DNA of 64,000 nt from Buxus sempervirens (taxonomy: Eukaryota > Streptophyta > Magnoliopsida > Buxales > Buxaceae), in contig OX387184.1 in assembly GCA_947561395.2 (NCBI GenBank), positions 59,393,197-59,457,196 on the forward strand, in the 5' to 3' direction. The notes under the pieces are model-generated. The model saw nothing but the letters and a program-made list of their open reading frames with translations, had not been told where the DNA came from and did no database searches. The first letter of the stretch is position 1. The number at the start of each line of letters is the position of its first letter. Of the stretch, positions 22,313-64,000 are shown one piece after another. The position numbers and the translations under genes were made by a program.

Positions 22313-22313
<1 letters not shown>

Positions 22314-22337: not shown

Positions 22338-22346
<9 letters not shown>

Positions 22347-25300: not shown

Positions 25301-25441
25301 GTCACGATATAACATTTAGACCATTCCAAACTCTGTTTGAACCCTTTTTCTGGTACTTGGGATCTGAAGAGATTGCTTCAACATTTCAGGTGATCGAATG
25401 ATTTCTTTCTTTCTTGACTGAAACTGTTACGGTCTATACGG

Positions 25442-35296: not shown

Positions 35297-35733
35297 TTTC
35301 CATTTAAGTTGGGTATAACAGTTTAGGACCTAATATATCAATGACTAGATTGGTAATTTTGTTAGAGTATAGCTGAATTTCATGTCATATGGTTTCAGGA
35401 TGAATTGCGAGATGTTGTATTACTTGTTTGTGTTATCAAACAAGATATTCCTAATGCAATGATTGTTGTAGAGATAACTGAGAAGCTTGGTATTCAATCT
35501 ATCCGCCAACAACACTGGTAGAATTTCCTTTGTGTCCTGTTTCTTGAGACTGCATTGTTTTTGTCTTGTATCTTTCCTGTTCTTAGTTTTATTTTTCAAT
35601 TATAATTTCGAGTACTTACTACAGTATGCTTTGGTGGCTTTTTTCGGTACAGAAGAGCACATGCAACTTACGGAGAGGGCCTGTATGAGGGGTTGGAGTG
35701 ACTTTCTTCCAACATATCTAGTAAGGCAAGTGC
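35297..35733 (+). pseudogene. ARF unit A: ARF1-type pseudogene, exons 4-5 only
   Basis: This is the truncated first unit of array 2. Exon 4 (35399-35517) follows a GGTTTCAG acceptor and reads [10 protein letters not shown], then KQDIPNAM and [16 protein letters not shown], matching the ARF C-terminal half that carries the guanine-binding NKQD motif; here the N is replaced (VIKQD). It ends at TG|GTAGAA with the phase of plant ARF genes. Exon 5 (about 35647-35733) matches [20 protein letters not shown] with an in-frame stop at the DW position and small length changes. Exons 1-3 are missing because array 1 ends at 35296. Confidence 0.88.
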
Positions 35734-36564
35734 TATTATATGTTTTCTGTATGTGAACTTAACTATTCTTTCATTATAGATGACGATAGTCATAAAAATT
35801 ATTTTTATTGTTTTATGTCCTTGTTCTTTGAATGTGTTCCTTCTTTCATTTTTTTTCAATTATTTATTCAACTTTTAGTTTTTCTAATTAGTATATTTTC
35901 AGCATGCACTCGTCTGTCTTTTTAAATATTTATTAAAATTGAATGGTTAAAGATGCAAACTAATATAAATTGTTAAGCTTCCCATCATATCTTAAAGAAA
36001 AAAAAAACCAAAGGACGATGGTAAAAAGAGTTAAATCAAATAAAGATTAAAAGCATATAAAATTATACTTTGCAAAAAATTAAATGTACACGTATACTAA
36101 CACGAACTTATAAAAAATCTAAATAGAAAATCAAAATCACTAGAATTAAAAGGGCAAATGAGTGTATGGTTAAAAAAAAGAAAATAATCATTTATTAGAA
36201 TTAATTAAAACTAGAATCCTAGTAGAATAGGATATTGAAAATGAAAACGTTAGAACATAACAAAAAAGGAGAAAGGTTAAATCGCAATAAATAATAAAAA
36301 ACAAAATTAAAGATCAACACACTAAAAAAGTATATTTACCATTTTCCTTTGAGTTGTATTCTGAAGGGAATGATGGGAGGTTTCAAAAGTATTTTAATTA
36401 TTTTATTTTTTCAGATACCGTTTACCATTCGCTTTTAAGTTTTTCTCTTACAACTTTCTCTTTTTAACCTTTTTCTACTTGTCTATTGTTTGTGTTTTTC
36501 GATTTTTTTAATTTTGTTTCTATATGCTTTTCTGTTTTTTTATTCTTTTTTGGTTTAATTTTTT

Positions 36565-38700
36565 CTTGTGCTTTCCAAGAGGAGATGTGGATTTTGCTTA
36601 TCAATCTTGATGTTTCTGGTAAGACCACCATTTATATGATTTGAAACCGGAAGGAATTGTCAGAGCGATTCCTGTTATTGGTGAGTTCTATTTATTGGAA
36701 TTGTTTAACCATGCAGTTTATTTTTAAAAATCATTTCAGCTTGTAACTCACTTTTAATTTGTCATCTTATGATACTAGTCCTTCCATTTGATGTTTAGTA
36801 TTAGTAAAATTTGACAATCAACTATTACAGGATTTAGTGTGGAGTAAAAGAATATTGGGTTCACGGATTGGGATGTTGGTTTTCAGGACAAGATAGGATT
36901 CTTAGTGATTTGAAATATTGGCAACCATCTAGAATGTCTCTTGCCTTTTTTTAGGTCCTTACTCTCCATAGTATAATAGTTGGATAATAATTGAATCTAT
37001 GAATTGGCTATTGTTGAAGTTTTACATACGTGGTTGTTGAATATTGCAATGTATTTCTTACACAAATCCATCCATTGAGGAGACATTATGTCAAAAACAT
37101 GCAACGTAATATTTTTTTTTGTGGATAGAAATGACAGGGATCGAACTGTTGAGGTAATGATTGAGCTGCATAGAGTGGTGAATGAGGTATCACACCATTA
37201 GCTCATGTTCCCTATATCTCTTTGTTTTATCTCTTCTAGTGGGCGTCTACCATTTGTCCATCAACATGTGTCTGATTTGGGGTTATCATGGTGTGGGTTC
37301 TTGGTGTTTTACATTGTGTGTTTGTGATTTGTTTTCCACTCTTTTGATAGTTGTTATGTGTGAGGTCTTTACCAATCGCCATTTTTGTGAGCGATAAATA
37401 ATACGAAAACTCTTAAAATGTCTAAATTTAATGGTTGTAGTTTTAGTGTTTCTTCCTCTAGCCAACCCTACAACTCCTAAGTTTGTTCTATTTCTGATGT
37501 ATGAAACATAAAGTTATGTCGGATTTTTATTTAATAATTGTGTTTTGCTTTTTTTTTGGGGGGTAATTACGGAGTCACCTACTTTAATTCTATGTTGCAC
37601 TGGTTCGGGTATGAAAATGATAATATGGTATATAGATAGTCTAGTTATAGTTCTTGATATTTGAAATATGGTATTTGTTATATTGGAAGCATATTTAAAT
37701 AATGTATTTGTTATAAATATTTTTCTGCATTGATAAACATAATAAAAATCAATATTTTGATTTGATTACCAATCTTAATGATAAGCTATAAGCCCTTTTA
37801 ACTAAGAGAAGCTAAGAATGATTCTCCATAGGAATTATGCTTGATAATATTTAAAATAAAGAAAGATAGTTTTTTAATTATGAGTGTCAAGGTCCTACAT
37901 GTGTCTAAAGTTAAGCGTTTAATTCACTTGCAATGGTTTCTGTAGCATTGCATAGAACAAATGTATTCACGAAATTGATTTCTCCAATGATGACCTTACT
38001 ATATTCCTGAATTTTGATCAATTCAAATCGAAGTATTGGTTGTTGGGAAGTAGGTGACTAATTTGATCGTGTGTAATTTTTTTCTTATATATTTGGTAAT
38101 TCGTCAAAAAAAAAATTGATGGTTTTTGCTTGTATGCCTAGTCAAAGACAAATTTTCCTTGCCTAAGTAATATGCTACCTAAGACTTATGCTGTAAAAAC
38201 CTTATTTTATCGTATTGCTTGTATATACTATAATTTTCTCAAAGTAATATCTTATTTTTGATAGTTTTTCATTTTTAAAGAACAAAAAAGTTTGGGACCG
38301 AAGATATCATCAATAATTAAATTGTTATGTTGGTTAGAGTGTAGCTGAATTTCATGTCTTATGGTTTCTTGATGAATTGCTTGATGCTATATAGCTTGTT
38401 TTTGCTATAAAAAAAAAAGATATTTCTAATGCTAGAATGCTACAGAGATAACTGAGAAGTTTGGTCCTCATTCTGTTTACCACCGACAGTGGTAAAATTT
38501 GCCTTGTCACGTGCTGCGCGAGACTCTATTTTTTTGCCTTGTATCTTTCATTTTTTTTTTCCATTATAACTCCGAATGCTTGCTCTAATCTGCTCTGGTG
38601 GCATCTTGGGAGCATGTAGAGAAATTCTGCAACGTCTAGGGTTTTCCCATATACGGCGCTGTATTGGTTTTCCTACAACATTGTTAGTCAGGCAAGAGCT
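36565..38700 (+). pseudogene. ARF unit B: five-exon ARF1-type pseudogene
   Basis: Exon 1 is about 36570-36680 (EMWILLINLDVSGKTTIY, keeping the P-loop GKTT, ending ATTG|GTGAGT). Exon 2 is 36831-36892 with an in-frame stop (SVE*KNI) and a GT-to-AT change at its donor. Exon 3 is about 37066-37186, ending NEWITH phase like LNE|GT. Exon 4 is about 38371-38491, with a run of A in place of the NKQ codons. Exon 5 is about 38608-38696. ARF1 GTPases recruit COPI and other coats at the Golgi; this copy has lost the frame in several exons and cannot make that protein. Introns are retained, so it is an unprocessed duplicate. It is most like units F and L. Confidence 0.85.
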
Positions 38701-38745
38701 ATCATATGTTAAATTGCTAATAAACAATTAATAATAATCTAATAA

Positions 38746-39680
<935 letters not shown>

Positions 39681-39742
39681 ATTACATGTTTTATGGCTAA
39701 TAAACAATTAATAAAATTCAATTAATTACTCTTTGATTCCAG

Positions 39743-41230
39743 ATTTTACTTTTCCCTATATTTTTTAGTGTGTTTTCCAAGAAGGAGATGCATATTTAGA
39801 TGGTGGATCTTGATGCTTGTGGTAATACCGACCTTTTGTACAAGCTGAAACTTGGAGAAGTTGTCAAATGTATTCCTACTATTTGTGAGTTCTAGTTAAT
39901 GTAATTGCTTAAGTATCTAGTTTGATTTAAAATTCATTTCAGCTTATGTATCTCACTTTTTATTCTCACTTAGAATACTGGTCCTTTCATTTGATGTCTA
40001 GTATTAGTATAATTTGACAGCCAACTATTAAAGGATTTGACGTGGAGTACAAGAATATCAGCTTCACTCTCTAAAATGTTGGTTCTTAGGATAAGGTAAT
40101 ATTCTTTTTTATTTCTTTCAATTCCACGTGCACCTATTAACAATGATCTAGAAATATTGCCAACCATCAATTTTCAGAATGTTGTGTGTCTTTTTTATGG
40201 TCCTTTATTTCTGTAGTATAATAGTTTGGTAATAACTGAATCTATGAAGAGGCTATTCCTGATGTTTTGCATGTGTTTTGGCTAAATAATGCAACATGTT
40301 TCTTACATAGATTCTTCAATTATGGAAATATCAAACAAAGATGTCTTTGTTGTATGCCTTTTGGTAGGTGTTGATCAGCATGTGTCTGATTTCAGCTCAT
40401 CATGTCGTGGGCTTTTGGTGTTTTACAATTTGTATGTTTGTTTTCTTTTAGCTGTATTTTGATATGTGTTCCTTGTTTGGTTTTATCGATAGTCCTTGTT
40501 GGGCAATCGGTAATGTGGGAAATCCTAAAATTATTAAATTAGATACTTTTGTTCCTTGAGTTGATTCCTATTTTGATGCGTGAAACACAAAGTTATATAC
40601 TTATATGTCTTATTTTTTCTTAGCAATTACGTTTCGGGGGTGGTTTTTTTTTTGTTTTGGTAATGCTACGGTCATAATATTTGATTTCTATTTTGCATTG
40701 GTTTGGATATGAAAGTGACAACATGGTATAGGTATAGAGTCCTGTTGGAATTATTGGTATTTGAAATATGGTATTTGTGGTCTTGAAGCATATTTTTATA
40801 GTTTATTTGGAATGAATATTTTTCTACATTGATAAACATAATGAAAATGAAGATTTTGATGAGATTACAAATCTTACTGGTGCAGAGTTTATTTGAATGA
40901 ATTGCAAGATGCTATATTGCTTATTTTTGCTAACAAACAAGATATTCCTAATGCAATGAATGCTGCAGCGTTAACTGAGAAGCTTGGTATTCACTCTATC
41001 AGCCAGCAGTGCTGGTAAAATTTTCCTCGTGCCCTGCTTCATAAGACTATTGTTTTTGTCGTTTATCCATCCTTTCTAATTTTTCTTTTTCCGTTACAAT
41101 TAGAGTGCTTGCTCTAATCTGCTCTAGTTGCATTTATTGGTATTATCTAGTGAACTTGTGCAACTTCTAGAGAGGAACTTTATAAGGGGCTGCATTGGCT
41201 TTTGTGCAACATTGTCGGCACTGCAAGTGA
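39743..41230 (+). pseudogene. ARF unit D: ARF1-type pseudogene, open exon 4
   Basis: Exon 1 (39743-39885) has KKEMHI, a stop, then [20 protein letters not shown]. Exon 2 (40034-40095) reads GFDVEYKNISFTL with stops further on. Exon 3 is cut after ILQLW (about 40312) and runs into intron 3 sequence. Exon 4 (about 40895-41014) is open throughout and well kept: [20 protein letters not shown], then [18 protein letters not shown], with the guanine-specificity motif NKQD intact. Exon 5 is about 41140-41230, frame lost. Nearest relatives are J, then H and N. As a whole the unit is broken. Confidence 0.87.
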
Positions 41231-41293
41231 TTTTATATGTTTTATGGCCAATTAACAATCAATAATATTTTACTAGTTACTTTATCATTCCAG

Positions 41294-43157
41294 ATCTTCC
41301 TTATTGATATATTTCTTCTTTTGTTTGCCAAGGAGATGCGTATTTTGCTGGTTGGCCTTCATGCTACGTGTAGTATCAACCTTTTATACAAACTGAAACT
41401 GGGAGAAATTGTCACAAGTATTCCTATTTTTGGTGAGTTCTGGTTATTGTCATTGATTAAGTTCCGAATTTGCTCTAATAATCATATTAGCTTTTGTATC
41501 TGATTTTTAATTTTACTTTAGGGTGCCGGTCCTTCCATGTGATATCTAGCATTAGTATAATTTCACAGCCAAGTATTACAGGCTGAACAAATGTTGAATG
41601 AGGTATGATACCATTTGATTTGTATTGGCCTAAATCTCTTATTGCTTAAGAATGTGTGGTCAGAATTATCCTCCATTAGGTATGAATTTCAAGTATGTAA
41701 TTGCCTCATATGTGGCAATATCAAATGGAGATATCTTTGTCGTATGCCTTCTTGTAGGTGTCCATTTGTCTATCAACATATGTCTGATTTCGACTTTTTA
41801 TGTTTTGGGTTTTTTGTGTTTTTCATTTTAAGTATGTGTGTTTTTTACTCGTTACTTATTTGTTCCTTGTTTGGTTTTTACCAAAAGTCCTTGTTAGGTA
41901 ATCAGTAATATGGAAAATACTAAAAGAATATTTAAATATCTCTGTCCCTTTAGTTGGTTACCTTTCTGAGGCATGAAACACAAACTCAAATGTCTAATTT
42001 TTATTTAGTAATTACATTTAGGGGGGTTTTTTTTTAAAGTGATACTAAAGTCACACCACTTTATTTCTATGTTGCATTGGTTTGGATATGAAAGTAAAAA
42101 CGGAAGGAAATATGGTATTTGTGGTCTTCGCAGCATATTTGAATAGTATTTTTGTAGTGAATATTTTTCTACCATGATAAACATAATGAAAGTCAAGATT
42201 TTGATGGGATTACAAATCTTACTCATAACGTATAATTTTTTTTGCTAAGAATTGTACAATTGATTCTCTATGCTGTGTTTTGCTTAATAATATTGAAATT
42301 GAAGAAAAGAAAATTTCTGAAATCCAAGTGTCTAACTCCTGCATGTATCTAACTTGAGTCCCTAATTAACTTATGATGCTCTATGTAGCATCACACAGGT
42401 TACTTGTATTCAAGAAATTGTAGAGGATAGTTATATTCAGAAAATTGTTTTGCCAATGATGTCCATACTATATTATTGAACCTTAATCAATTCTAGCAGA
42501 GGAATAAGATATAGCAAATGAGGTGATTCATTTCTCCATGTGTAATTATTTTTGTATTTTCTAATACTTGTTTTAATCTGTCAAAAAAAAAAAAAACAAA
42601 TTTATGGTATTCACAAGTCTGCCTAATAAACAAACATTCTCCCTGCCTCCGTCACGTGTTACCTAATACTTATTTTGGCAAAATGTTCCTTTATTGATGC
42701 AATCTTTTATTTCTGTTAGTTTCCTTTTAAGCTGGGAATAACAGTTTAGGACCTAATATATTAATGATTGGATTGGTAATTTGGTTAGAGTATAGCTGAA
42801 TTTCATGTCATATGGTTTCAGGATGAATTGCGAGATGTTGTATTACTTGTTTGTGCTATCAGAGAAGATATTCCTAATGCAATGAATGTTGTAGAGATAA
42901 CTGAGAAGCTTGGCCTTCAATCTATCCGCCAACAGCACTAGTAGAATTTCCTTTGTGTCCTGCTTCTTGAGACTGCGTTGTTTTTGTCATGTATCTTTCC
43001 AGTTCTTTGTTTTATTTTTCAATTATAATTCCGAGTACTTACTATAGTATGCTTTGGCGGCTTTTTTCAGTATAGCGAGGGCTCATGCAACTTACGGAGA
43101 GGGCCTGTATGAGGGGCTGGAGTGACTTTCTTCCAACATATCTAGGAATGCAAGTGC
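41294..43157 (+). pseudogene. ARF unit E: ARF1-type pseudogene, exons 2-3 fused remnant
   Basis: Exon 1 (41294-41432) is open: [20 protein letters not shown] then [17 protein letters not shown]; the P-loop has lost GKT. The exon 2 acceptor (TATTACAG at about 41574-41581) is joined directly to the end of exon 3 (ATGTTGAATGAG|GTATG, about 41591-41602), so most of exons 2-3 and the intron between are gone. Exon 4 is 42832-42940 ([12 protein letters not shown]..., final Trp codon changed to a stop). Exon 5 is about 43067-43157 (TYGEGLYEGLE). Unit K has the same fusion. Confidence 0.87.
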
Positions 43158-43999
43158 TATTATATGTTTTCTGTATGTGAACTTAACTATTCTTTCATTA
43201 TAGATGACGATAGTCATAAAAATTATTTTTATTGTTTTATGTCCTTGTTCTTTGAATGTGTTCCTTCTTTCAATTTTTTTCAATTATTTATTCAACTTTT
43301 AGTTTTTCTAATTAGTATATTTTCAGCATGCACTCGTCTGTCTTTTTAAATATTTATTAAAATTGAATGGTTAAAGATGCAAACTAATATAAATTGTTAA
43401 GCTTCCCATCATATCTTAAAGAAAAAAAAAACCAAAGGACGATGGTAAAAAGAGTTAAATCAAATAAAGATTAAAAGCATATAAAATTATACTTTGCAAA
43501 AAATTAAATGTACAAGTATACTAAAACGAACTTATAAAAAATCTAAATAGAAAATCAAAATCACTAGAATTAAAAGGGCAAATGAGTGTATGGTTAAAAA
43601 AAAGAAAATAATCATTTATTAGAATTAATTAAAACTAGAATCCTAGTAGAATAGGATATTGAAAATGAAAACGTTAGAATATAACAAAAAAGGAGAAAGG
43701 TTAAATCGCAATAAATAATAAAAAACAAAATTAAAGATCAACACTCTAAAAAAGTATATTTACCATTTTCCTTTGAGTTGTATTTCTTAAGGGAATGATG
43801 GGAGGCTTCAAAAGTATTTTAATTCGTTTATTTTTTCAGATACCGTTTACCATTCGCTTTTAACTTTTTCTCTTAGAACTTTCTCTTTTTATCCTTTTTC
43901 TACATGCCTATTGTCTGTGTTTTTCGTTGACTTTTTTGATTTAGTTTCTATATGCTTTTCTATTTTTTTCTTCTTTTTTTGTTTAATTTTTTCTTGTTT

Positions 44000-46108
44000 T
44001 TTCCAAGGGAAGATGTGGATTTTGCTTATCAATCTTGATGTTTCTGGTAAGACCACCATTTATACGATTTGAAACCGGAAGAAATTGTCGGAGCTATTCT
44101 TGTTATTGGTGAGTTCTATTTATTGGAGTTGCTTAACCATCCAGTTTATTTTTAAAAATCATTCCAGCTTGTATTTCATTTTTAATTTATCATTTTATGA
44201 TACTAGTCCTTCCATTTGATGTCTAGCGTTAGTAAAATTTGACAATCAACTATTACAGGATTTAGTGTGGAGTAAAAGAATATCGGGTTCACGGTTTGGG
44301 ATGTTGGTTGTCAGGACAAGGTAGGATTCTTAGTGATTTGAAATATTGGCAACCATCAATTTTTCGAATGTCTTGTGCCTTTTTTTACGTCCTTACTCTG
44401 CATAGTACGATAGTTGGATAATAATTGAATCTATGAATATGCTATTGTTGAATATTGCAATGTATTTCTTACACAAAATTTTCCATTGTGGAGATATTAT
44501 GTCTAAAACATGCAGGGTAATATTTTTTGTTGCGGATAGAAATGACAGGGATTGAACTGTTGAGGTAATGATTGAGCTGCACAGAGTGGTGAATGAGGTA
44601 TCACACCATTAGCTCCTGTTCCCTATATCTCTTCTAGTGGGCGTCTACCATTTGTCCATCAACATGTGTCTGATTTGGGGTTATCATGGTGTGGGTTCTT
44701 GGTGTATTACATTGTGTGTTTGTGATTTGTTTTCCACTCTTTTGATAGTTGTTATGTGTGAGGTCTTTACCAATCGCCATTTTTGTGTGCGATAAATAAT
44801 ATGAAAACTCTTAAAATGTCTAAATTTAATGGTTGTATTTTTAGTGTTTCTTCTTCTAGCCAACCCTACAACTCCTAAGTTTGTTCTATTTCTGATGCAT
44901 GAAACATAAAGTTATGTCGGATTTTTATTTAATAATTGTGTTTTGATTTTTTTTTTTGGGGGTGGGGGGGGTAATTACAGAGTCACTTGCTTTATTTCTA
45001 TGTTGCACTGGTTTGGGTATGAAAGTGATAATATGGTATCTAGATAGTCATGTTTGAGTTCTTGATATTTGAAATATGGTATTTGTTGTCTTGGAAGCAT
45101 ATTTAAATAATGTATTTGTTATGAATATTTTTCTGCATTGATAAACATAATAAAAATCAACATTTTGATTTGATTACCAATCTTATTGGTAACCTATAAG
45201 CCCTTTTAACTAAGAGAAACTAAGAATGATTCTCCATGGGGAATTATGTTTGATAATATTTAAAATAAAGAAAGATAGTTTGTTAATTCTTAGTGTCTTG
45301 GTCCTACATGTGTCTAAAGTTAAGCGTTTAATTCACTTACAATGGTTTCTGTAGCATTACATAGATCAGTTGTATTCATGAAATTGATTTTTCCAATGAT
45401 GACCTTACTATATTCTTGAATTTTGATCAATTCAAATCAAAGTATTGGTTGTAGGAAAGTAGGTGACTAATTTGATCGCGTGTAATTATTTTCTTATATA
45501 TTTTGTAATTCGTCAAAAAAATTTTGTGGTTTTTGCTTGTATGCCTAGTCAAAGACACCTTTTCCTTGCCTAAGTAATATGCTACCTAAGACTTATGCTG
45601 TCAAAACCTTATTTTATCGTATTGCTTGTATATACTATAATTTTCTCCAAGTAATCTCTTATTTTTGATAGTTTTTCATTTGTTGAGGGCAAAAAAGTTT
45701 GGGAGCTAAGATATAATCAATAATAAAATTGTTAAGTTGGTTAGAGTGTAGCTGAATTTCATGTCTTATGGTTTCTTAATGAATTGTCAGATGTTATATA
45801 GCTACTTTTTGCTAAAAAAAAAAGATATTTCTAGTGCTAGAATGCTACAGAGATAACTGAGAAGTTTGGTCCTCACTCTGTCTACCACAGGCAGTGGTAA
45901 AATTTACCTTGTCACATGCTGCGCGAGACTCTTTTTTTTGCCTTTTACCTTTCATTTTCTTTTCTTTTTTCCATTATAACTCCGAATGCTTGCTCTAATT
46001 TGCTCTAGTGGCATCTTAGGAACATGTAAAGAAATTCTGCAACGTCTAGAGATTGCTTATATACGGCGCTGTATTGGTTTTCTTACAACATTGTTAGTCA
46101 GGCAAGTG
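44000..46108 (+). pseudogene. ARF unit F: five-exon ARF1-type pseudogene
   Basis: Exon 1 is about 44004-44108 (MWILLINLDVSGKTTIYTI with a stop after), exon 2 44259-44320 (SVE, stop, KNIGFTVWDVGCQDK, intact GT donor), exon 3 about 44477-44598, exon 4 about 45779-45895 with an A-run inside, exon 5 about 46017-46108. It is nearly the same as units B and L, including inter-unit DNA on its left. It is broken in several exons. Confidence 0.85.
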
Positions 46109-46172
46109 CTATCATATGTTAAATTTCTAATAAACAATTAATAATTATCTAATAATTTTTCTGTGATTCCAG

Positions 46173-47064
46173 ATTTTTATTTTCTATGTATTTTTTTCTT
46201 TCTTTTGCCAAGAAGGAGATGCGTATTTTGCTAGTCAATCTTGATGATGCTAGTAATACTATCCTTTTGTACAAACCGAAACTGGGAGAAATTGTCGAAA
46301 ACATTCCTGCTATTGGTGTGTTCTTGTTATTGTAATTGCTTAAGTATTGAGTTTGCTTTAGAATTAATTTTAATTTTCGCTTAGGCTACTGGTCCTTCCA
46401 TTTGATGTTTAGCATTAGTAAAATTTCACAGCCAACTATTACAGGATTTGATTTGGAGACTGTGGTGTAAAAGAATATCATATTCTCCGTTTGGGATGTT
46501 GGTTCTGAAGACAAGGTAGGATTCTTTGTTATCTCTTTCAATACCGCGTGCAATTATTTACAGTGATCTAGAAATATTGCCAACCATCAACTTTCCAAGT
46601 GTCATGTATCCTTTTTTAGGTCCTTTCTTTCCACAGTGATTTTGGTACTAACTGAATCTATAAAGAGGCTATACCTGAAGTTTTGAATGTGTATTGGCTA
46701 AATAATGAACATGTTTCTTTGATAGATTATCCCTTATGGAGACATTACTTCTAAAACGCACAGGGTAATATTTTTGTTATGGAGAGTAAAGATAGTGGTT
46801 AAATTGGTTCGGCAAGGATCGGGTTGCACAGAATGTTGAATGAGGTATGATACCATTTGATCGTGTTGGCCTATGTCTCTTATTACCTAAGAATGAGGTA
46901 TAATTCCTTTTGTTTTTATTTTTCTTTTTCCATTAGATTTCCGTGTGCTTGCTCTAATATGCTCTAGTGGCATCTTAGGTACATCTAGAGAACTTGTGCA
47001 ACTTCATAGAGCCTATATAAGGGGTTGAATTGGCTTTCCTACGACATATTGAGCAAGGCATGTG
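46173..47064 (+). pseudogene. ARF unit G: ARF1-type pseudogene lacking exon 4
   Basis: Exon 1 is 46173-46315 ([35 protein letters not shown]), exon 2 46445-46515 (GFDLETVV, stop, KNIIFSVWDVGSEDK), exon 3 46726-46844 with a frame loss, then exon 5 at about 46977-47064. Exon 4 is absent as in C, I and M. The TGTGGTGTAA variant in exon 2 is shared with M but not with C or I, which links G to M. Confidence 0.86.
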
Positions 47065-47128
47065 CTATTACAAGTTTTATAGCGAATAAACAATTAATAA
47101 AAATCAATTAATTATTCTGTGATTCCAG

Positions 47129-48761: not shown

Positions 48762-49361
48762 TTTTATATGTTTTATGGCCAATTAACAATCAATAATATT
48801 TTACTAGTTACTTTATTAATTAAGAATGCGTGGTCATAATTATCATCCATTACGCAAGAATTTCAAGTCTCTAATTGCCTTATGTGTGGCAATATCAAAC
48901 AGAGATGTCTTTGTTGTATGCCTTTTGGTAGGTGTTCATCACATGTGTTTGATTTCAGCTCATGATATCATGGGTTTTTGGTGTTTTACATTTTGTACGT
49001 TTTTCTTTTTAGTTGTATTTTGATATTTGTTCCTTGTTTTGTTTTACCAAAAGTACTTTTGTTGTATTGGAAGCATGTTTGAATAATATTTTTGTAATGA
49101 ATATTTTCTACATTGATAAACATAAAGAAAATCAAGATTTTGATGGGATTAATAATCTTACTCATAACGTATGATATTTTTAGCTAAGAAATGGTACAAT
49201 TGATTCTCTATGGTGAATTTTGCTTGATAGTATTGAAATTGAAGAAAAGATAATTTTTGAATTGCAAGTGTCTGACTCATGCATGTATCTAACTTGAGTG
49301 CCTAATTAACTTATGATGGTCTATGTAGCATCACACAGATTATTTGTATTCAGGAAATTGT
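48762..49361 (+). pseudogene. Rearrangement joint: ARF intron fragments without exons
   Basis: After exon 5 of unit H the pre-exon-1 intron (to about 48817, ACTAGTTACTTTAT) jumps into intron 3 sequence (from TTAATTAAGAATGC), nearly identical to 47816-48050. A second jump at about 49055 leads into the later part of intron 3 as in unit E (42120-42430). A third, at about 49361, lands inside exon 2 of a C-type unit. These three joints mark where unequal exchange placed the duplicated block. Confidence 0.75.
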
Positions 49362-51637: not shown

Positions 51638-51704
51638 GTGTTATTACATTTTTTATGGAAAATAAACAATTAATAAAATTCGATTAATTACTCTTTGATT
51701 CCAG

Positions 51705-53128
51705 ATTTTACTTTTCCCTATATTTTTTAGTGTGTTTGCAGAGAAGGAGATGCATATTTAGATGGTGGATCTTGATGCTTGTGGTAATACCGACCTTTTG
51801 TACAAGCTGAAATTGGGAGAAATTGTCAAATGCATTGCTACTATTTGTGAGTTCTTGTTAATGTAATTGCTTAAGTATCTAGTTTGATTTAAAATTCATT
51901 TCAGCTTATGTATCTCACTTTTTATTGTCACTTAGAATACTGGTCCTTTCATTTGATGTCTAGTATTAGTATAATTTGACAGCCAACTATTAAAGGATTT
52001 GACGTGGAGTACAAGAATATCAGCTTCACTCTCTAAAATGTTGGTTCTCAGGATAAGGTAATATGCTTTTTTATTTCATTCAATTCCACGTGCAACTATT
52101 AACAATGATCTAGAAATATTGCCAACCATCAATTTTCAGAATGTTGTGTTTCTTTTTTATGGTCCTTTATTTCTGTAGTATAATAGTTTGGTAATAACTG
52201 AATCTATGAGGAGGCTATTCTTGAAGGTTTGCATGTGTATTGGCTAAATAATGCAACATGTTTCTTGCACAGATTCGGCAATTAGGCAAATATCAAATAG
52301 AGATGTCTTTGTTGTATGCCTTTTGGTAGGTGTTGATTAACATGTGTCTGATTGCAGCTCATCATGTCATGGGCTTTTGGTGTTTTACATTTTGTATGTG
52401 GTTTTTTTAGTTGTATTTTGATATTTGTTCCGTGTTTGGTTTTACCGAAAGTCCTTGTTGTGTAATCGGTAATATGGGAAATCCTAAAATTATTAAATTA
52501 GATACTTCAGTTCCTTGAGTTGATTACTTTTCTGATGCGTGAAACCCAAAGTTATATGTCTTATTTTTTCTTAGCAATTATGTGTAGGGGTTTTTTTTTT
52601 GTTTTGGTAATGCTACGGTCATAATATTTGATTTCTATTTTGCATTGGTTTGGATATGAAAGTGACAACATGGCATAGGTATGGAGTCCTGTTGGAATTA
52701 TTGGTATTTGAAATATTGTATTTGTGGTCTTGAAGGGTATTTTAATAGTTTATTTGGAATGAATATTTTTCTACATTGATAAACATAATGAAAATGAAGA
52801 TTTTGATGAGATTACAAATCTTACTGGTGCGGAGTTTATTTGGACGAATTGCAAGATGCTATATTGCTTATTTTTGCTAACAAACAAGATATTCCTAATG
52901 CAATGAATGCTGCAGCGTTAACTTAGAAGCTTGGTATTCACTCTATCAGGCAACATCGCTGGTAAAATTTTCCTCGTGCCTTGCTTCATAAGACTATTGT
53001 TTTTGTCGTTTATCCATCCTTTCTAATTTTTCTTTTTCCGTTTTAATTAGAGTGCTTGCTCTAATCTGCTCTAATGGATAAACGGGGCTGCATTGGCTTT
53101 TGTGCAACATTGTTGACACAACGAGTGA
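51705..53128 (+). pseudogene. ARF unit J: D-type ARF pseudogene
   Basis: Exon 1 is 51705-51847, exon 2 51996-52057 (GFDVEYKNISFTL, stop, NVGSQDK), exon 3 is reduced to a short start (IRQLG, about 52273-52287) joined to intron 3, exon 4 is 52843-52961 ([20 protein letters not shown] with a stop later), and exon 5 is cut at its 5' part (about 53074-53128). It pairs with unit D by sequence and by the exon 3 truncation. Confidence 0.85.
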
Positions 53129-53515
53129 TTTTATATGTTTTATGGCCAATTAACAATCAATAATATTTTACTAGTTACTTTATCATTCCTGATCTTCCTT
53201 ATTGCTATATTTTTTCTTCTGTTTGCCAAGGATATGCGTATTTTGCTGGTTGGCCTTCATGCTGTGTGTAGAATCACCCTTTTATACAAACTGAAACTGG
53301 GAGAAATTGTTACAAGTATTCCTATTTTTGGTGAGTTCTGGTTATTGTCATTTATTAAGTTCCAAATTTGCTCTAATAATCATTTTAGCTTTTGTATCTG
53401 TTTTTTAATTTTCACTTTAGGGTACCGGTCCTTCCATGTGATATCTAGCATTAGTATAATTTCACAGCTAGGTATTACAGGCTGAACAAAATGTTGAATG
53501 AGGTATGATACCATT

Positions 53516-55206
53516 TGCAACACCCCAATAAGCCGCATCTCGTCCCTTTGGACTAAGATCAGCTAAAGGATGTTAACTAGATCCTAATAAACATGATGGT
53601 AAAATTTTTCCTTTATTTTTTTGACAAAAGGCGTATATAATGCCTAGAAAATGGACGATATCCAAGTGTGAAAAATGCCTAATAAACGTGGGTGCAACAT
53701 ATACTATATGTGTACAGTCAAACTAACTATAAAAGAGGCATTTAAAGTATAAACCATAAAGTAAAGGTATCAAAAGAACCCATTAAAAGTTATATACATA
53801 GTTTTACAAAAGTGGGTCATCTAAGCATCTCACATCTCTCTCTTTCTCTCTCTCTATCTACATAAATCCAAAATAAGATATACATTATCTAGGGAGACCT
53901 AGTAGGCCTGAAGAAATCCTCCTCTCGGTATCTCAAAGCTTTCTCCTTCCCCTTATCAGCTTTAGCTCCAGACGTCGATGGATCTAAAACAAAACCCATA
54001 AACCACGGTTGATGAGATGAAAGGTCCCAGTAAGCAACACTATGCATGCTTTTGCATACCACAGTTCATGCCATATCTTTTCAAATCCATGATGCATAGC
54101 AATAGATCGAAAACCGATGCAATAATGCCAATATACATCTTTACATATCATTCATAACATTTAGCACAAGCATACAAGGGCATTCATTAATCAATGGACA
54201 CAAGCATTAAAATCTACTAACTCTTTGCAACAACAACCATGTTGATCTCATTCCATTTATAGAGTTAATTAGGTGGTTTAATTGTAAACGTCATGATCAC
54301 ATTTAACTCTATACGTTTCCCATATAGGTTAGGCATCCAACCCGATTCCCCTTGGTTTTGGGCATCCTAACGCCGATTCCCCTTAGCGTAGGGCATCCAG
54401 ATAAAGCTTGGGCATCAGCCACCGATTCCCCTTGGTGCTGGAATTCAGTACAACCATCGGCTTCCAGCCGGCATCAATAGAAACCACACATGATGAAACA
54501 ACAGTATCCAAGGTCACGAAATTTATAATTAAACACACCTACTTAAGTTATACGGATCCGCATCTTAAGTTAAAATTTTATGACTTTCATTTTATTTGGT
54601 ATCTCACACAATCGTTTCCATGTCAACAGAACTATGTTTCTCAAACACAGCCCGTAGGGCTACTAATTCACAGTTATCCAGGCCATTGCCCCATAGTTTA
54701 CATTTCATTTTCAGATCATGGGCCTATGCCCTCATGCTTCCATACATTTCATGTATAAATTCATGCAATGCTTTCTTATGCAAACAGAGCATCACATTTA
54801 TCTCAATTTGCAAACATACTATAGTCATATGCATCTAAAATAAATTGCAACTCATTTAACAGCAACATATAATAATACTAATCTCATATTAGCAACAGAA
54901 ATCCGAAAATTCATTTTGAATTCAAGAAAACTAAATCAAGGTTTTCTTAGAAGGGTGTTGCTTACCTTGAAACTATAATCACCTTCTTCTTAGCTTTAGC
55001 AACCCAAATACGAAATCAAAATACTGTTTTCTTCAAATTTCCAACTTTGTCTTCTCTCCAAGCTTAAGGTCCCTTCTTAATTTGAGGACTCTACTTCATA
55101 GTTCCAATCTAGGCCTCTGAAGGATCACCTTCACAACACAAACCCTGTGTCAGTTATAATATTACAACTACAACTTGAATATTGATTAGAGAATTGGGAT
55201 CTTACA
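53516..55206. mobile_element. Solo LTR 2, LTR retrotransposon relic
   Basis: A 1691-bp insertion with TG...CA ends, flanked by CCATT (53511-53515) and CCATC (55207-55211). The empty site is seen in unit E at about 41610 (ATACCATTTGATTTG). It lacks internal retroelement domains and belongs to the same family as solo LTR 1. It probably derives from a Gypsy element. The single difference in the flanking repeat suggests it is somewhat older than solo LTR 1. Confidence 0.75.
53832..53864. repeat. CT-rich low-complexity run
   Basis: CTCTCTCTTTCTCTCTCTCT-type run within solo LTR 2. No function suggested. Confidence 0.8.
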
Positions 55207-57564
55207 CCATCTGATTTGTATTGGCTTAAATCTCTTATTGCTTAAGAATGTGTGGTCAGAATTATCCTCCATTAGGTATGAATTTCAAGTATGTAATTGC
55301 CTCATATGTGGCAATATCAAATGGAGATATCTTTGTCGTATGCCTTCTTGTAGGTGTCCATTTGTCTATCAGCATATGTCTGATTTCGACTTTTTATGTC
55401 TTGGGTTTTTCGTGTTTTTCAATTTATGGGTGTGTTTTTTGTTTGGTTTTTACCAAAAGTCTTTGTTATGTAATCAGTAATATGGAAAATACTAAAAGAA
55501 TATTTAAATACCTCTGTCCCTTGAGTTGGTTACCTTTCTGAGGCATGAAACACAAACTTATATGTCTAATTTTTATTTAGGTATTACATTTAGTGGGGTT
55601 TTTTTTCATATGATATTAAAGTCACACCACTTTATTTCTATCTTGCATTGGTTTTGATATGAAAGTAAAAAATGGAGGGAAATATGGTATTTGTGGTTTT
55701 GGAAGCATGTTTGAATAGTATTTCTGTAATGAATATTTTCAACATTGATAAACGTAATGAAAATCAAGATTTTGATGGGATTACAAATCTTACTCATAAC
55801 GTATGATTTTTTTAGCTAAGAAATGGTACAATTGATTCTCTATGGTGAATTTTTCTTGATAATATTGAAATTGAAGAAAAGAAAATTTCTGAATTCCAAG
55901 TGTCTGACTCCTGCATGTATCTAACTTGACTCCCTAATTAACTTATGATGGTCTATGTGGCATCACACAGGTTACTTGTATTCAGGAAATTGTAGAGGAT
56001 AGTCATATTCAGGAAATTGTTTTGCCAATGATGTCCATACTATAATATTGAACCTCGATCAATTCTAACAGAGGAATAAGATATAGCAAATGAGGTGATT
56101 CATTTGTCCATGTGTAATTATTTTGTATTTTCTAATACTTGTTTTAATCTGTCAAAAAAAAAAAAACAAATTTATGGTATTCACAAGTCTTCCTAATAAA
56201 AGAAGCATTCTCCCACAAACATTCTCCCTGCCTCCGTCATGTGCTACCTAATACTTATTTTGGCAAAATGTTCCTTTATTGATACAATCTTTTATTTCTG
56301 TTAGTTTCCTTTTAAGCTGGGCATAACAGTTTAGGACCTAATATATCTATGACTGGATTTGTAATTGCGTTAGAGTATAGCTGAATTCCATGTCATATGG
56401 TTTCAGGATGAATTGCGTGATGTTGTATTGCTTGTTTGTGCTATCAAACAAGATATTCCTAATGCAATGAATGTTGTAGAGATTACTAAGAAGCTTGGTC
56501 TTCAATCTATTCGCCAACAGCATTGGTAGAATTTCCTTTGCTTCTTGAGACTGCATTGTTTTTGTCATGTATCTTTCCAGTTCTTTGTTTTATTTTTCAA
56601 TTATCATTCTGAGTACTTACTACAGTATGCTTTGATGGCTTTTTTCGGTGCAACAAGGGCCCATGCAACTTACGGAGAGAGCCTGTATGAGGGGTTGGAT
56701 TGACTTTCTTCCAACATATCTAGCAAGGCAAGTGCTATTATATGCTTTCTGTATGTAAACTTAACTATTCTTCCATTATACATGACGACAGTCATAAAAA
56801 TTATTTTTATTGTTTTATGTCCTTGTTCTTTGAATGTGTTCCTTCTTTCATTTTTTTTTCAATTATTTATTCAAATTTCGCTTTTTCTAATTAGTATATT
56901 TTCAGCATGCACTTGTCTGTCTTTTTAAATATTTATTAAAATTGAATGGTTAAATATGCTAACTAATATAAATTGTTAAGCTTCCCATCATATCTTAAAG
57001 AAAAAAAATCCAAAGGACGATGGTAAAAAGAGTTAAATCAAATAAAGATTATAAGTATATAAAATTATACTTTGCAAAAAAATAAATGTACAAGTATACT
57101 AAAACGAACTTATAAAAAATCTAAATAGAAAATCAAAATCACTAAAATTAAGTGGGCAAATAAGTGTATGGTTAAAAAAAAGAAAATAATCATTTATTAG
57201 AATTAATTAAAGCTAGAATCCTAGTAGAATAGGATATTGAAAATGAAAATTTTAGAACATAACAAAAAAGGGGAAAGGTTAAATCGCAATAAATAATGAA
57301 AAACAAAATTAAAGATAAACACACTAAAAAAGGATATTTACCATTTTCCCTTAAGGAATGATGGGAGGCTTCGAAATTATTTTAATTATTTTATTTTTTC
57401 GGTTACCGTTTATCATTAGCTTTTAACTTTTTCTCTTACAACTTTCTCTTTTTAACCTTTTTTCTACATGTCTATTGTTTGTGTTTTTCGCTGTTTTTTT
57501 TTTAATTTAGTTTCTATATGCTTTTCTTTTTTTTCTTCTTTTTTGGTTTAAGTTTTTCTTGTGT

Positions 57565-59728
57565 TTTCCAAGAGGAGATATTGATTTTGCTTATCAATCT
57601 TGATGCTTATGGTAAGACCACCATTTATATGATTTGAAGCCGGAAGAAATTGTCAGACCTATTCCTATTATTGGTGAGTTCTTTTTATTGGAATTGCTTA
57701 ACCATCCAGTTTATTTTTAAAAATCATTTCAGCTTGTACCTCACTTTTAATTTGTCATCTTATGATACTAGTCCTTCCATTTGATGTCTAGCGCTATTAA
57801 AATTTGACGATCAACTATTACAGGATTTAGTGTGGAGTAAAAGAATATCGAATTCATGGTTTGGGATGTTGGTTGTCAGGACAAGGTATGATTCTTAGTG
57901 ATTTTAAATATTGGCAACCATCAATTTTTCAATTGTCTTGTGCCTTTTTTAGGTCCTTACTCTCCATAGTATAATAGTTGGATAATAATTGAATCTATGA
58001 ATATGCTGTTGTTGAAGTTTTACATGCGTGGTTGTTGAATATTGCAATGTATTTCTTAGACAAAACTTTCCATTGTGGAGACATTATGTCAAAAACATGC
58101 AGGGTAATATTTTTTGTTGCGGATAGAAATGACAGGGATCAAATTGTTGAGGTAATGATTGAGCTGCACAGAGTGGTGAATGAGGTATCACACCATTAGC
58201 TCCTGTTCCCTATATCTCTTTGTTTTATCTCTTCTAGTGGGCGTCTACCATTTGTCCATCAACATGTGTCTGATTTGGGGTTATCATGGTGTGGGTTCTT
58301 GGTGTTTTACATTGTGTGTTTGTGATTTGTTTTCCACTCTTTTGATAGTTTTTATGTGTGAGGTCTTTACCAATCGCCATTTTTGTGAGCGATAAATAAT
58401 ACGAAAACTCTTAAAATGTCTAAATTTAATGGTTGTATTTTTAGTGTTTCTTCCTCTAGCCAACCCTACAACTCCTAAGTTTGTTCTCTTTCTGATGCAT
58501 GAAACATAAAGTTATGTCGGATTTTTATTTAATAATTGTGTTTTGATCTTTTTTTGGGGGGGGGGGGGGGGGGGGGGGGGGGTAATTACGGAGTCACTTA
58601 CTTTAATTCTATGTTGTACTGGTTTGGGTTTGAAAGGGATAATATGGTATATAGATAGTCAAGTTTGAGTTCTTGATATTTGAAATATGGTATTTGTACT
58701 CTTGGAAGCGTATTTAAATAATGTATTTGTTATGAATATTTTTCTGCATTGATAAACATAATAAAAATCAACATTTTGATTTAATTACCAATCTTATTGG
58801 TAACCTATAAGCCCTTTTAACTAAGAGAAGCTAAAAATGATTCTCCATGGGGAATTATGTTTGATAATATTTAAAATAAAGAAAGATATTTTGTTAATTC
58901 TTAGTGTCAAGGTCCTACATGTGTCTAAAGTTAAGCTTTTTATTCACTTGCAATGGTTTGTGTAGCATTGTATAGAACAGTTATATTCAAGAAATTGATT
59001 TTGCCAATGATGACCTTACTATATTCTTGAATTTTGATCAATTCAAATCGAAGTATTAGTTGTAGGAAAGTAGGTGACTAATTTGATCGTGTGTAATTAT
59101 TTTCTTATATATTTTGTAATTCGTCAAAAAAAAATTTTCGGTTTTTGCTTGTATGCCTAGTCGAAGACACATTTTCCTTGCCTAAGTAATATGCTACCTA
59201 AGACTTATGCTGTCAAAACCTTATTTTATCGTATTGCTTGTATATACTATAATTTTCTCCAAGTAATCTCTTATTTCTGATAGTTTTTCATTTGTAGAGG
59301 GCAAAAATGTTTGGGAGTTAAGATATCATCAATAATAAAATTGTTAAGTTGGTTAGAGTGTAGCTGAATTTCATGTCTTATGGTTTCTTAATGTATTGTT
59401 AGATGATATATAGTTTGTTTTTGCTAAAAAAAAAAAGATATTTCTAATGCTAGAATGGTACAGAGATAACTGAGAAGTTTTGTCCGCACTCTGTCTACCA
59501 CAGGCAGTGTTAAAATTTCCCTTGTCACGTGTTTCGCGAGACTATTTTTTTTGCCTTTTATCTTTTTTTTTTTTTTTTTTTTTCTTTTTTCCATTATAAC
59601 TCCGAATGCTTGCTTTAATCTGCTCTGGTGGCATCTTAGGAACATGTTGAGAAATTCTGCAACGTCTAGAGATTGCCTATAAACGGCGCTGTATTGGCTT
59701 TCCTACAACATTGTTAGTCAGGCAAGTG
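57565..59728 (+). pseudogene. ARF unit L: five-exon ARF1-type pseudogene
   Basis: Exon 1 is about 57570-57673 (ILLINLDAYGKTTIY, then a stop), exon 2 57824-57885 (SVE, stop, KNIEFMVWDVGCQDK), exon 3 about 58063-58184 (ending LHRVVNE), exon 4 about 59389-59509 with an A-run inside, exon 5 about 59636-59728. It is nearly identical to B and F. Intron 3 holds the G27 tract at 58556-58582. Confidence 0.85.
58556..58582. repeat. Uninterrupted G homopolymer, 27 bases
   Basis: The sister introns carry only about 6-7 G (near 37558) or a GGGGG-T-G8 run (near 44957) between the same T-run and GTAATTAC flank. A slippage expansion of G in one copy is the simplest reading. Errors of sequencing or assembly at a homopolymer cannot be excluded. 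Confidence 0.9.
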
Positions 59729-59792
59729 CTATCATATGTTAAATTTCTAATAAACAATTAATAATAATCTAATAATTACTCTGTGATTCCAG

Positions 59793-60682
59793 ATTTTTAT
59801 TTTCTATGTATTTTTTTCTTGCTTTTGCCAAAAAGGAGATGCGTATTTTGCTAGTCAATCTGATGATGCTAGAAAATACTATCCTTTGTACAAACCGAAA
59901 CTGGGAGAAATTGTCGAAAACATTCCTACTATTGGTGAGTTCTTGTTATTGTAATTGCTTTAGTATTCAGTTTGCTTTAAAATTAATTTTAATTGTCACT
60001 TAGGATATTGGTCCTTCCATTTGATGTTTAGCATTAGTAAAATTTCACAGCCAACTATTACAGGATTTGATTTGGAGACTGTGGTGTAAAAGATTATCAT
60101 ATTCTCTATTTGGGATGTTGGTTCTGATGACAAGGTAGGATTCTTTGTTATCTCTTTCAATACCACGTGAAATTATTTACAGTGATCTAGAAATATTGCC
60201 AACCATCAACTTTCAGAGTGTCATGTATCCTATTTTAGGTCCTTTCTTTCAACAATGATTTTGGTAATAACTGAATCTATGAGGAGGCTACCTGAAGTTT
60301 TGAATGTGTATTGGCTAAATAATGAACATGTTTCTTTCATAGATTATACATTGTGGAGACGTTACTTCTAAAACACACAGGGTAATATTTTTGTTATGGA
60401 GAGTAACGACAGTGGTTAAATTGTTGTGGCAAGGGACGGGTTGCACAGAATGTTGAATGAGGTATGATACCATTTGATCGTGTTGGCCTAAGTCTCTTAT
60501 TACCTAAGAATGAGGTATAATTTATTTTGTTTTTATTTTTCTTTTTCCATTAGATTTCTGTGTGCTTGCTCTTATATGCTCTAGTGGCATCTTAGGTACA
60601 TCTAAAGAACTTGTGCAATTTCATAGGGCCTATATAAGGGGCTGAATTGGCTTTCCTACGACATTGTAAGCAAGGCACGTGC
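59793..60682 (+). pseudogene. ARF unit M: ARF1-type pseudogene lacking exon 4
   Basis: Exon 1 is 59793-59934 ([12 protein letters not shown] then a frame loss, later [12 protein letters not shown]-like sequence), exon 2 60064-60134 (GFDLETVV, stop, KIIIFSIWDVGSDDK), exon 3 60344-60461, exon 5 about 60595-60682. It shares the exon 2 TGTGGTGTAA variant with G. Confidence 0.86.
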
Positions 60683-60777
60683 TATTACATGTTTTATGGC
60701 TATTAAACAATTAATAAAAATCGATTAATTACTCTGTGATTGCAGATTATCCTTTTCCCTATATTTTTTAGTGTGTT

Positions 60778-63684
60778 TGTGACGCCCCGGACCCGGACAT
60801 GTTCGTTAAAGGTATATGCCGGTTCCTTGACATCAGGTGAGGTCCCAGAACGCATTTCTAAGTTTTAAAAACTAACCAAACAGTTATATTTTAATCCAAA
60901 ATTTTCGGAAAAACGGCTATATAACGTCTGTATTTATAAGAATGGGCTAAGCCCTCAAACCAATACCTGATAAACACAAAATATATAGATAATATACACC
61001 ATTCCCAAAAAAAAACTAAGCCATCAAACATCTACAGATTTAAAGTAAAGTTTACTAAGGTTTTCCCTTCTTTTCTCTCTTTCTCATTTACAATTTATAC
61101 ACAATCCAAAAAATATACGACTACATAAAAACACTGCCCAACCCTATCCCGGATAATAATAATCCTCCGGGTTGTAGTCGTCATCCAGCCCGTTAGTTCT
61201 GCCTACCTCAGTTTGTGGTTGCTCTGTAGATTTATCTGAAAACTAAACCGGTAAAAACAAAACACGCTTGAGACTAACGTCTCAGTAAGCAGCATAATGC
61301 ATGATAAGAACATTTTATGCAGTTTCAACAGTAAAATAGCATGATAATGTAATATACCATCAAACTTTGGCAACTCATCTAAATCTATATCAATATCATG
61401 CAATGACATTACTTCGAATTCTGTGGAATCATAAAACAGATAAAATCAGATTAATCCAAACCACGATTTCAGTAAATTCTCATGTAATAACAAAGATTTA
61501 ATTCACTTGTCCCAATTCACCAGCTTACGACTTACAATGGAAAGATCTAGCTAGGATCGCTATTCCAAAGCGGAGCACTCAAGCATGAGACATGCATGAG
61601 CTGGCAAGTACAACCCAGTCCAACCATAGCAAGTTAGTGATCTCTTCAGACCATCGAGTTAGTGATCTCTATTAGACCATCGCGTTAGTGATCTTTATTA
61701 GACCATCGAGTTAGTGATCTTTATTAGACCATCGAGTTAGTGATCTTTATTAGACCATCGAGTTAGTGATCTCAATGAGACCATCTAGTTGACTTTACGG
61801 GTTGCTGTGGCACATTCTGAGGAGGATGCAAGTTCACAACCCCCGGCCCTTCATGAGCTAGGGTGAACTGCCTTCCCCAACCCCCAGAACCGTGTATCAC
61901 ATGCTGGACAAGATTATAAATTACGCACGCAATCCCCGATGAGGGAGCCACACTGGGCCTGTGTTACCTCATCCTAACACAATACCCATAAGAAATCAAC
62001 AACCAATGTACAACTAAAACCAAGTGAATTTTCGCTGTTTACTTCCCATTTAATCTCTAGGCCATTCTGCCTTTCAGGATGCCTTATGTTACACACTTTA
62101 ACATTAAAACCAACTTGGACTTAACCAACACATGAGAAACCCCTTCCTAACATCTTAATGTAAGTATTATTACCTCTAATTATTCACTAAGGATCTCTTT
62201 TATATAGAAAATGCATTAGTCGTGGTATAATTTAGGGTTTTTCCCTTATTATTAATTTCTAACTTGATTTGTGACTAAACCTTAATTATTTATTCAATAT
62301 TAACCTGCTTACCAAAAATGAACTTACTTTTGATTAGAATATATATTAAACACTAAAAACTAAATTTCATTGAGTTATTGACTGAACATAAAGACTTTAT
62401 TGTAATATAACCTTATTTATAATTTCTATATCATTTTTGTACTGAACTTTAATTATTTTTCTTAGAACCTCTTCTCTTCAACGAACCCTGTAAATTCTCT
62501 CTCTCTTCCGTAACCTCTTCCTCTCCTCTCTTTCATTTCTCTTTTTCGTTTCTCTCCTCTCTTTCATTTCTCTCCCACTATTTCTCTCCTCTCTTTCTTC
62601 TCTCTTATACTTAGTTCATCAATTCACCTTCATGGGTCTCTCTTCTCCATGAGAAAGAGCCCAACAACAGCACCTTTCTTAACCTCCTACTTCACATTTT
62701 TTTTTCCTTCCTTCATGCCATTCTTATTTCATACTCCCCTCAACAACCAAAACCAAAGCATCACAATTCATTAAATTGCCACAACCAACCCAAACAACCA
62801 CAAACAGAGGTACGATTAAACTGAAATCAAACGATAGAAACCAATTTCGTCTAAACTGCTACTTACCCATTTAGTGTGATTAGCCCTCCTCCCTTCTTCT
62901 TCCTCTTCCTTTCTCCTCCATTCCTTCTCTTCTCCTTCCTTCATCTTCCTCTTCTCCTTGCTTCCCTTTTTCCTCTTCTTCCGGCTTCCTTCTAACCCTC
63001 ACGAAGGAGATTAAAATGAGAATAAGAACCCTCGGTTCTACTACTTGTAATACCCAATAACCCATTGAACCGGTTCATTTTCAATGAACCGACTTAAACC
63101 AAGCAAACCTAATTTAATTAACCATAAGACATAACCCATTAAACCCCCAATCAAACCCAACTAAACCTAATTAAACCAAGCCCAAGTAAGAAAATTCTTT
63201 CTTCAATTTAATTGATTACACCTAAATCCACTAAATCAGCTAAACCGATCCACTTAATCCAATAAACCAAACCCACTTATACCCAACTACACCCACTTGA
63301 ACCAAACCAAATTAAACCCAACTTAAACCCTCTTCAATTTATATAATATTTTTAAATGAACCGAACTCAAGCAAATTAATTGATTAATCCATCAAACCTT
63401 TAAATCAAACCCAACAAAATTAAATAATTCTTTTCCTTCAATAAAGTAATTTAATCTAAACCCATTACACCTAAGCCAACTAAATCGAATTCTAACACTT
63501 ATACCGATTCACTTGAATGAACCAATCCAACAAAACCTAGTCCACTCAATTTAACCTATTCATTTAAAGCGAAAACCCACCCAATTAAGCCATTTCATGA
63601 AAATTGGATTTAAGTAACCTCATTAAATCCTTTAATCATCTATTTATCCTTAGTTAAAATTTCTTGAAAATTCAGGGTTTTACA
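60778..63684. mobile_element. Solo LTR 3, long LTR retrotransposon relic
   Basis: A 2907-bp insertion with TG...CA ends and a perfect 5-bp flanking repeat GTGTT (60773-60777 and 63685-63689). The uninterrupted target is seen in unit H at about 47157. It has no gag-pol domains. It shares the GTCTCAGTAAGCA word and the ...CGGACCCGG / GGTTTTACA style of ends with solo LTRs 1 and 2 but little else, so it is a related but distinct family, probably Gypsy. It contains a 26-bp minisatellite (61632-61793) and a CT-rich stretch (62500-62990). The intact target repeat suggests a recent insertion. Confidence 0.75.
61632..61793. repeat. 26-bp minisatellite inside solo LTR 3, ~6 copies
   Basis: The unit is GTTAGTGATCTTTATTAGAC plus CATCGA. 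Inner copies are identical or differ by a base; the outer ones vary (TCTCTTCAG, TCTCAATGAG). Such short tandem arrays are common in long plant LTRs. Confidence 0.9.
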
Positions 63685-64000
63685 GTGTTTGCCAAGAAGT
63701 AGATGCATATTTAGCTGGTGGATCTTGATGCTTGTGGTAATACCGACCTTTTGTACAAACTGAAACTAGGAGAAATGCTCAAATGCATTCCTACATTTTG
63801 TGAGTTCTAATTATTGCAATTGCTTAAGTATCTAGTTTGATTTAAAATTCATTTCAGCTTATATACCTTACTTTTTATTGTCATTTTGAATACTGGTCCT
63901 TTCATTTCATGTCTAGCATTATTATTATTTGACAACCAACTATTATAGGATTTGATGTGGAGTACAAGAATATCAGCTTCACTCTCTAAAACGTTGGTTC

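Follow-up and report, generated by a model that had tools for sequence, protein, structure and literature searches.

The right-hand part of the window (the whole stretch of DNA that was analysed, 64,000 nucleotides at C4:59,393,197-59,457,196, where C4 is contig OX387184.1 of a 676-Mb genome whose ARF proteins and style of genes point to a flowering plant) contains 14 units derived from the GTPase gene ARF1, all on the + strand, which run from about position 35291 past the right edge. In all probability, as judged from its sequence, this is a gene-derived, neutrally decaying, satellite-like tandem array of unprocessed ARF1 pseudogenes with a higher-order repeat and with no protein function now. 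It is clearly a fossil of gene amplification and not a new working system. The first-pass annotation had read the region as tandem, intron-bearing, dead ARF1 copies, and our results support that reading; to it are added a higher-order repeat of four unit types, a single shared junction, and amplification of the block after the death of its copies.

We used Arabidopsis ARF1 as a tblastn query against the window, which gave 42 matches at E<0.01. These are ordered exon matches, all on the + strand, from 35375 to the end of the window; at this threshold no matches are found left of 35290 or on the minus strand, and neither the reversed ARF1 nor any of 20 shuffled versions of it has a match in the window. 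Nucleotide alignment of the intact ARF1 gene of C10 to the region gives the same tiling of the array, introns included. Exon coordinates, frames and splice sites were taken from exon-by-exon alignment; the assignment of exons to units is our own, as are the type names A to D. Concerning the first-pass count of 14 head-to-tail units, our own count is also 14. Its statement that each unit carries five ARF1 exons in order holds for the order but not for the number, as types B, C and D and units 1 and 9 lack exons or parts of them. Failure of ARF exons to align in order had been proposed as the refuting test: they do align in order, and in units 2, 6 and 12 the C10 alignment is continuous across exons E1-E5 and the introns. 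The ARF domain (PF00025) search matches the array repeatedly although no intact unit was found, a warning for annotation pipelines. In the genome-wide PF00025 search 150 of 180 candidates were scored, so that counts elsewhere in the genome are lower bounds.

The succession of units in the window by type is D, A, B, C, D, A, B, C, B, C, D, A, B, C. The left border of the array lies at 35291-35295, at the end of a different, non-coding repeat (X). The type A units are unit 2 (36542-38691), unit 6 (43967-46101) and unit 12 (57532-59721); all have E1-E5, which in unit 2 are recognisable with stops in E1, E2 and E5 and with frameshifts. Intron 3 of unit 12 contains a run of 27 G at 58556-58582. Each A unit is preceded by about 0.8 kb of non-ARF sequence, located between D and A at 35749-36537 and, in similar form, at about 43160-43970 and 56750-57540. 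The type B units 3 (38756-39671), 7 (46166-47057) and 13 (59786-60674) have E1, E2, E3 and E5, and B units in general keep no more than a tail of E4; unit 9 (49341-51633) has E2, E3 and E5, lacks E1 and is split by an insert (49907-51582), whose ends and flanking GTATA repeat on both sides look solo-LTR-like by eye. Among the type C units, 4 (39743-41227) and 8 (47129-48758) contain E1, E2, a degenerate E3, E4 and E5, and unit 10 (51705-53125) contains E1, E2, E4 and a ruined E5. Unit 14 (63650-64000) shows E1 (63650-63800) and the start of E2 and runs on to 65261 past the window; an insert in its head (60779-63660) has solo-LTR-like ends by eye, and a 26-bp tandem repeat of 6.2 copies is found within that insert at 61632-61790. 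Type D is represented by unit 1 (35291-35748), which is truncated, starts within intron 3 at the border with repeat X and has only E4 (35399-35517) and E5 (35647-35725); by unit 5 (41294-43149), with E1, E4 and E5 and without E2 and most of E3; and by unit 11 (53192-56727), with E1 (53192-53330), E4 (56407-56525), E5 (56648-56727) and an insert at 53517-55206 whose ends also look solo-LTR-like by eye. The array is thus interrupted by three long inserts besides those of 0.8 kb. Pieces of intron 3 at 48793-49360 (+) are read by us as what is left of a D unit after its deletion and are not counted; the A unit expected after them is absent.

A search for the end of the array beyond 64 kb had been suggested, and the right end is found near C4:59,472,300 (the last match falls at 79191 in window numbering), after six further units. 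By our exon assignment the first cluster therefore has 20 units, in the order D-ABCD-ABC-(remnant)-BCD-ABCD-ABCD-A, which we read as a four-unit repeat with one deletion. The types are defined by shared lesions and by trees; they follow each other in the fixed order A-B-C-D, and the higher-order repeat is about 7.4 kb long. Block copies at about 35293-40327, 42716-47712 and 56301-60778 are 90.7-91.8% identical. Pairwise divergence per site, by exon or intron, is 0.066-0.131 within types and 0.145-0.361 between types; blocks are thus repeated in the same order and copies of the same type are closer to each other than to their neighbours, the two marks of a higher-order repeat. Every type is set off by a branch with support 100 in the trees in which it was placed (A, B and C in the E1-E2 tree; A, C and D in the E4-E5 tree). 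Concerning the lesions, type B has lost E4, type D has lost E2 and most of E3, and in the first cluster the units of types A and B have an E2 stop at the same place.

Related units are found elsewhere. A second cluster, about 0.3 Mb from the first (C4:59,781,793-59,807,280), has about 14 units, some partial, of which five are on the minus and nine on the plus strand; the minus units (C4:59,781,793-59,787,280) meet the plus units head to head at about C4:59,787,200. Two of its three B copies with E2 do not have the E2 stop (C4:59,782,582, minus strand, and 59,791,719), so the stop is not older than all B copies: either it arose after the B type or it was lost by conversion. Several more units are present at C15:30,584,295-30,592,805. 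One of these groups with A in the E1-E2 tree (support 98), and in the E4-E5 tree type D is joined by one C15 unit (97) and type C by one (80), which indicates that more than one type existed before the block multiplied on C4. C21 and C22 contain pseudogene copies of the 5' half (E1-E3). A decayed ARF1 copy lies at C22:30.564 Mb, and near it, at C22:30.58-30.60 Mb (L002, L003, L004), are repeated GTPase copies with open frames of 120-130 aa, which look SAR1-like.

We read five intact ARF1-type genes, on C10, C4 (two), C15 and C6, each with five exons and 540 coding bases (the short last exon aside) and no stop. Among the matches listed, only that of C10 gives long intron-bearing alignments to the units, up to 1576 bp at 67-79% identity in the best 14 of 34 matches; the C6 gene matches over 345 bp, spanning E4, intron 4 and E5. 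In the exon tree, the array and C10 are separated from the other four intact genes with support 100 and the array is monophyletic with 99, while the branching order among types is weak (49-62). The first-pass annotation had also raised the question of an intact parent: on this evidence C10 is the nearest of the five and would be either the parent itself or its sister. The alignment of C10 introns to the units shows that they did not arise as retrocopies, and ordered exons with introns together with lesions in every unit of the window are what is found in unprocessed ARF1 pseudogenes.

The junctions between units were compared at all 21 places in the two C4 clusters where the gap between E5 and the next E1 is below 250 bp; the D-to-A junctions, with their 0.8-kb insert, lie outside this set. 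All 21 share one fusion; measured from where E5 ends to an acceptor-like ATTCCAG, it is 71 nt long in 19 of them and 66 nt in the other two, in which the end of E5 is aligned differently. The simplest reading of one common fusion at 21 of 21 junctions is one founder duplication. No unit alignment in the C4 clusters extends upstream of the C10 start codon, whereas the C21 and C22 copies do align there, as does one 259-bp match from C15.

Concerning decay, the P-loop (GxxxxGK[ST]) is gone from all 12 copies of E1 in the window, and over its first 48 bases E1 shows differences at about 40-57% of the aligned positions. At least one frameshift or stop is present in each of the 14 units, also when the non-homologous E1 head is set aside, in agreement with the earlier view that none is intact. 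The array copies have no start, no P-loop and no intact frame, and thus neither the P-loop nor the Met-Gly start of a functional ARF GTPase.

Within types, variable sites were counted at codon position 1 (90/365), position 2 (85/363), position 3 (103/366) and in introns (179/798), pooled over six type-regions (A, B and C in E1-E2; A, C and D in E4-E5) and covering units in which E1 and E2, or E4 and E5, are neighbours; within these the count takes in E1 from its base 49 onward and alignment columns in which a type has at most one gap, while E3 and the E5 copies of type B lie outside it. The four classes do not differ (chi-square p=0.20), nor do positions 1 and 2 against position 3 (p=0.14) or exon against intron (p=0.14). 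Intact genes, used as the control, differ mostly at position 3: C10 and C6 differ at 6, 1 and 45 of 180 sites at positions 1, 2 and 3, and the nine other pairs are alike in this (8, 1 and 66 of 180 for C10 and the gene at C4:8.124 Mb). Purifying selection thus leaves no trace within types, and the equality of the site classes, set against the position 3 excess of intact ARF genes, indicates that the block was amplified after its copies were dead. These lesions, with the lack of constraint within types, also lead us to reject a functional ARF cluster. The codon positions are even between type consensuses too (A vs B: 10/54, 11/53 and 10/54), and E1 and E2 differ more than intron 1 (18/147 for A vs B). 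From about the type split onward, the copies have evolved without constraint.

A different pattern is seen against C10. Type consensuses differ from it at 70/365, 50/363 and 68/366 sites at positions 1, 2 and 3 and at 156/701 intron sites, so that exon positions are nearer to C10 than introns are, and constraint on the stem before the type split is possible. Constraint on C10 itself accounts for part of this contrast, and an early constrained array stem would do so too. The E4 copies of types C and D are the closest to C10 (15.5% and 16.7%, vs 30-34% for intron 4), and stops and frameshifts are absent from most of them; as evidence for constraint this is weak, because intron 4 aligns poorly.

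The simplest account of these data is a founder duplication followed by decay and then by amplification of the block through unequal crossing over, a last step that we infer. The source would be a cassette from a relative of the C10 gene, reaching from within the first coding exon to slightly beyond exon 5 and lacking both the start codon and the 5' region of C10. One founder event probably duplicated it head to tail, as the shared junction suggests, and the copies would then have decayed into the four types that are now seen. Unequal crossing over among repeats out of register is the likeliest way in which the four-copy block of about 7.4 kb was then copied several times; its equivalent copies keep the A-B-C-D order and differ by about 7-13%. 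Deletions, LTR-like inserts and the inverted second cluster 0.3 Mb away would be later. The mechanism is ordinary; ARF1 as its raw material is unusual.

The founder could have been a working gene in which a symmetric, in-frame cassette of five exons, closed by the 71-nt intron, was repeated in one transcription unit under one promoter and, until its frame broke down, spliced into a chain of several ARF domains. We consider this unlikely, and it is compatible with the preferred explanation, since it concerns the founder and the latter concerns the present state. It is structurally possible: with a first-exon head of 42 nt the cassette measures 534 nt, a multiple of three, although one random cassette in three would be in frame. 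Of the 21 junctions, 17 keep a GC donor and 16 an acceptor AG, and at 14 (10 of these with AG) the reading frame continues into the next exon with no stop. The remaining seven are out of frame, namely six B junctions with a one-base shift and one C junction. The intact C10 gene also has GCAAGT after exon 5, which we take for a GC donor, and the exons that are nearer to C10 than the introns leave room for early constraint. A precedent is a gene with a triplicated ARL13-like domain, reported for Euglena gracilis (PMC8358228). A branch-point-like word is found at all 21 junctions, but the pattern is loose and the DNA rich in A+T. Selection between types gives no support: the even codon positions, with E1 and E2 even exceeding intron 1, argue against any long period of protein selection after the type split.

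It is very unlikely that the array, dead as protein, works as RNA, its sense and inverted copies giving rise to double-stranded and small RNAs that would tune the intact ARF1 genes. The second cluster does have both orientations, and exact 21-mers of the coding sequences of C10 (16/520) and C6 (9/530) occur on either strand of the two C4 clusters, with a longest match of 25. However, the other three intact genes share no 21-mer (0/531, 0/530 and 0/529; totals for all genes but C10 include windows over exon borders that are unable to match), and among the matches listed there are three 21-mers each for C10 and C6, within one short stretch of E1. The units of the window all have one orientation, their site classes do not differ within types, and no Rfam match is found in the window, repeat X included. 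Tandem retrotransposed (processed) copies, to which the exon heads without a start codon and without the C10 5' region might point, as often in retrocopies, are rejected, since the introns are kept, align to those of C10 and are unbroken over E1-E5 in units 2, 6 and 12.

Repeat X (window 1-35293) is a degenerate, non-coding tandem repeat separate from the array. Its + strand is rich in T and G (between 2 and 30 kb the AT skew ranges from about -0.2 to -0.33 and the GC skew from about 0.16 to 0.31). With a 471-bp seed 33 matching pieces are found, a number that includes the seed and some overlaps; pieces other than the seed are 58-76% identical to it. No codon-phase signal is seen in the aligned module (0.231, 0.229, 0.226), nine ORFs from X and one from an insert have no Pfam match above the cut-off (best E 0.01), and X has no match to the intact ARF loci among the matches listed (at most the 14 best per locus). 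Two young direct duplications are present within it, at 5739-6095 (177 bp x 2, 100%) and 12571-13318 (369 bp x 2, 99.5%). X occurs elsewhere mainly on C4 (54.59-54.62, 31.13-31.15 and 47.88 Mb), and also on C3, C6, C8 and C10. It resumes right of the array, where about 7 kb (window 19323-26603) recurs in pieces at 96-98% in C4:59.472-59.487 Mb (L012/L013), interrupted by long ORFs that we take to be hAT transposase.

Two elements of 6.4 kb, on C4 (L027 1105-7458) and C6 (L028 1101-7541), are 97.7% alike and have terminal inverted repeats of 1.29 kb with arms about 97% alike, in which there are SAR1-like exons. By eye, 9-bp direct repeats are present at their ends (TTAAAATTA; TATTTAAAA). On the basis of the inverted and direct repeats these are probably Mutator-like elements, with what we assume to be captured SAR1 pieces inside the inverted repeats. 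Similar pairs are found at eight more places among the PF00025 candidates, at varying distance.

The array shows cleanly how a conserved housekeeping gene that is normally dispersed (ARF1, membrane traffic) has turned into satellite-like DNA, and in it the founder junction, four dead monomers, the later amplification of the block and a related cluster on another chromosome can be read together. For rice and foxtail millet, it is reported that ARF/ARL genes underwent no tandem duplication (PMC4838888). Among the titles listed by a literature search, which covered mostly papers outside subscription, none describes such an ARF array. Compared with plant ARF1 GTPase genes, the units share the exon-intron plan and, in their decayed exons, many residues, but have no start, P-loop or intact frame. 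With duplicated (unprocessed) pseudogenes they share retained introns, broken frames and even substitution over site classes; the difference is that here the array is regular and an already broken block was itself multiplied. The Stellate repeats of Drosophila and the inverted copies of the ARR17 and OGI type make small RNAs. Like these, the array consists of partial copies, in tandem or inverted, of a conserved gene whose parent lies elsewhere; unlike them, it has little exact match to the intact genes, and its units in the window run in one direction. Further known relatives in kind are the higher-order repeats of satellite DNA, such as alpha satellite, and gene-derived macrosatellites such as D4Z4/DUX4 and RS447. 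The array differs from these in that its monomers are ARF1 pieces of about 0.9-2.2 kb (inserts aside), with no more than about five blocks in its first cluster and no coding monomer seen, but resembles them in the fixed order of diverged monomers and in that equivalent monomers across blocks are closer than neighbours.
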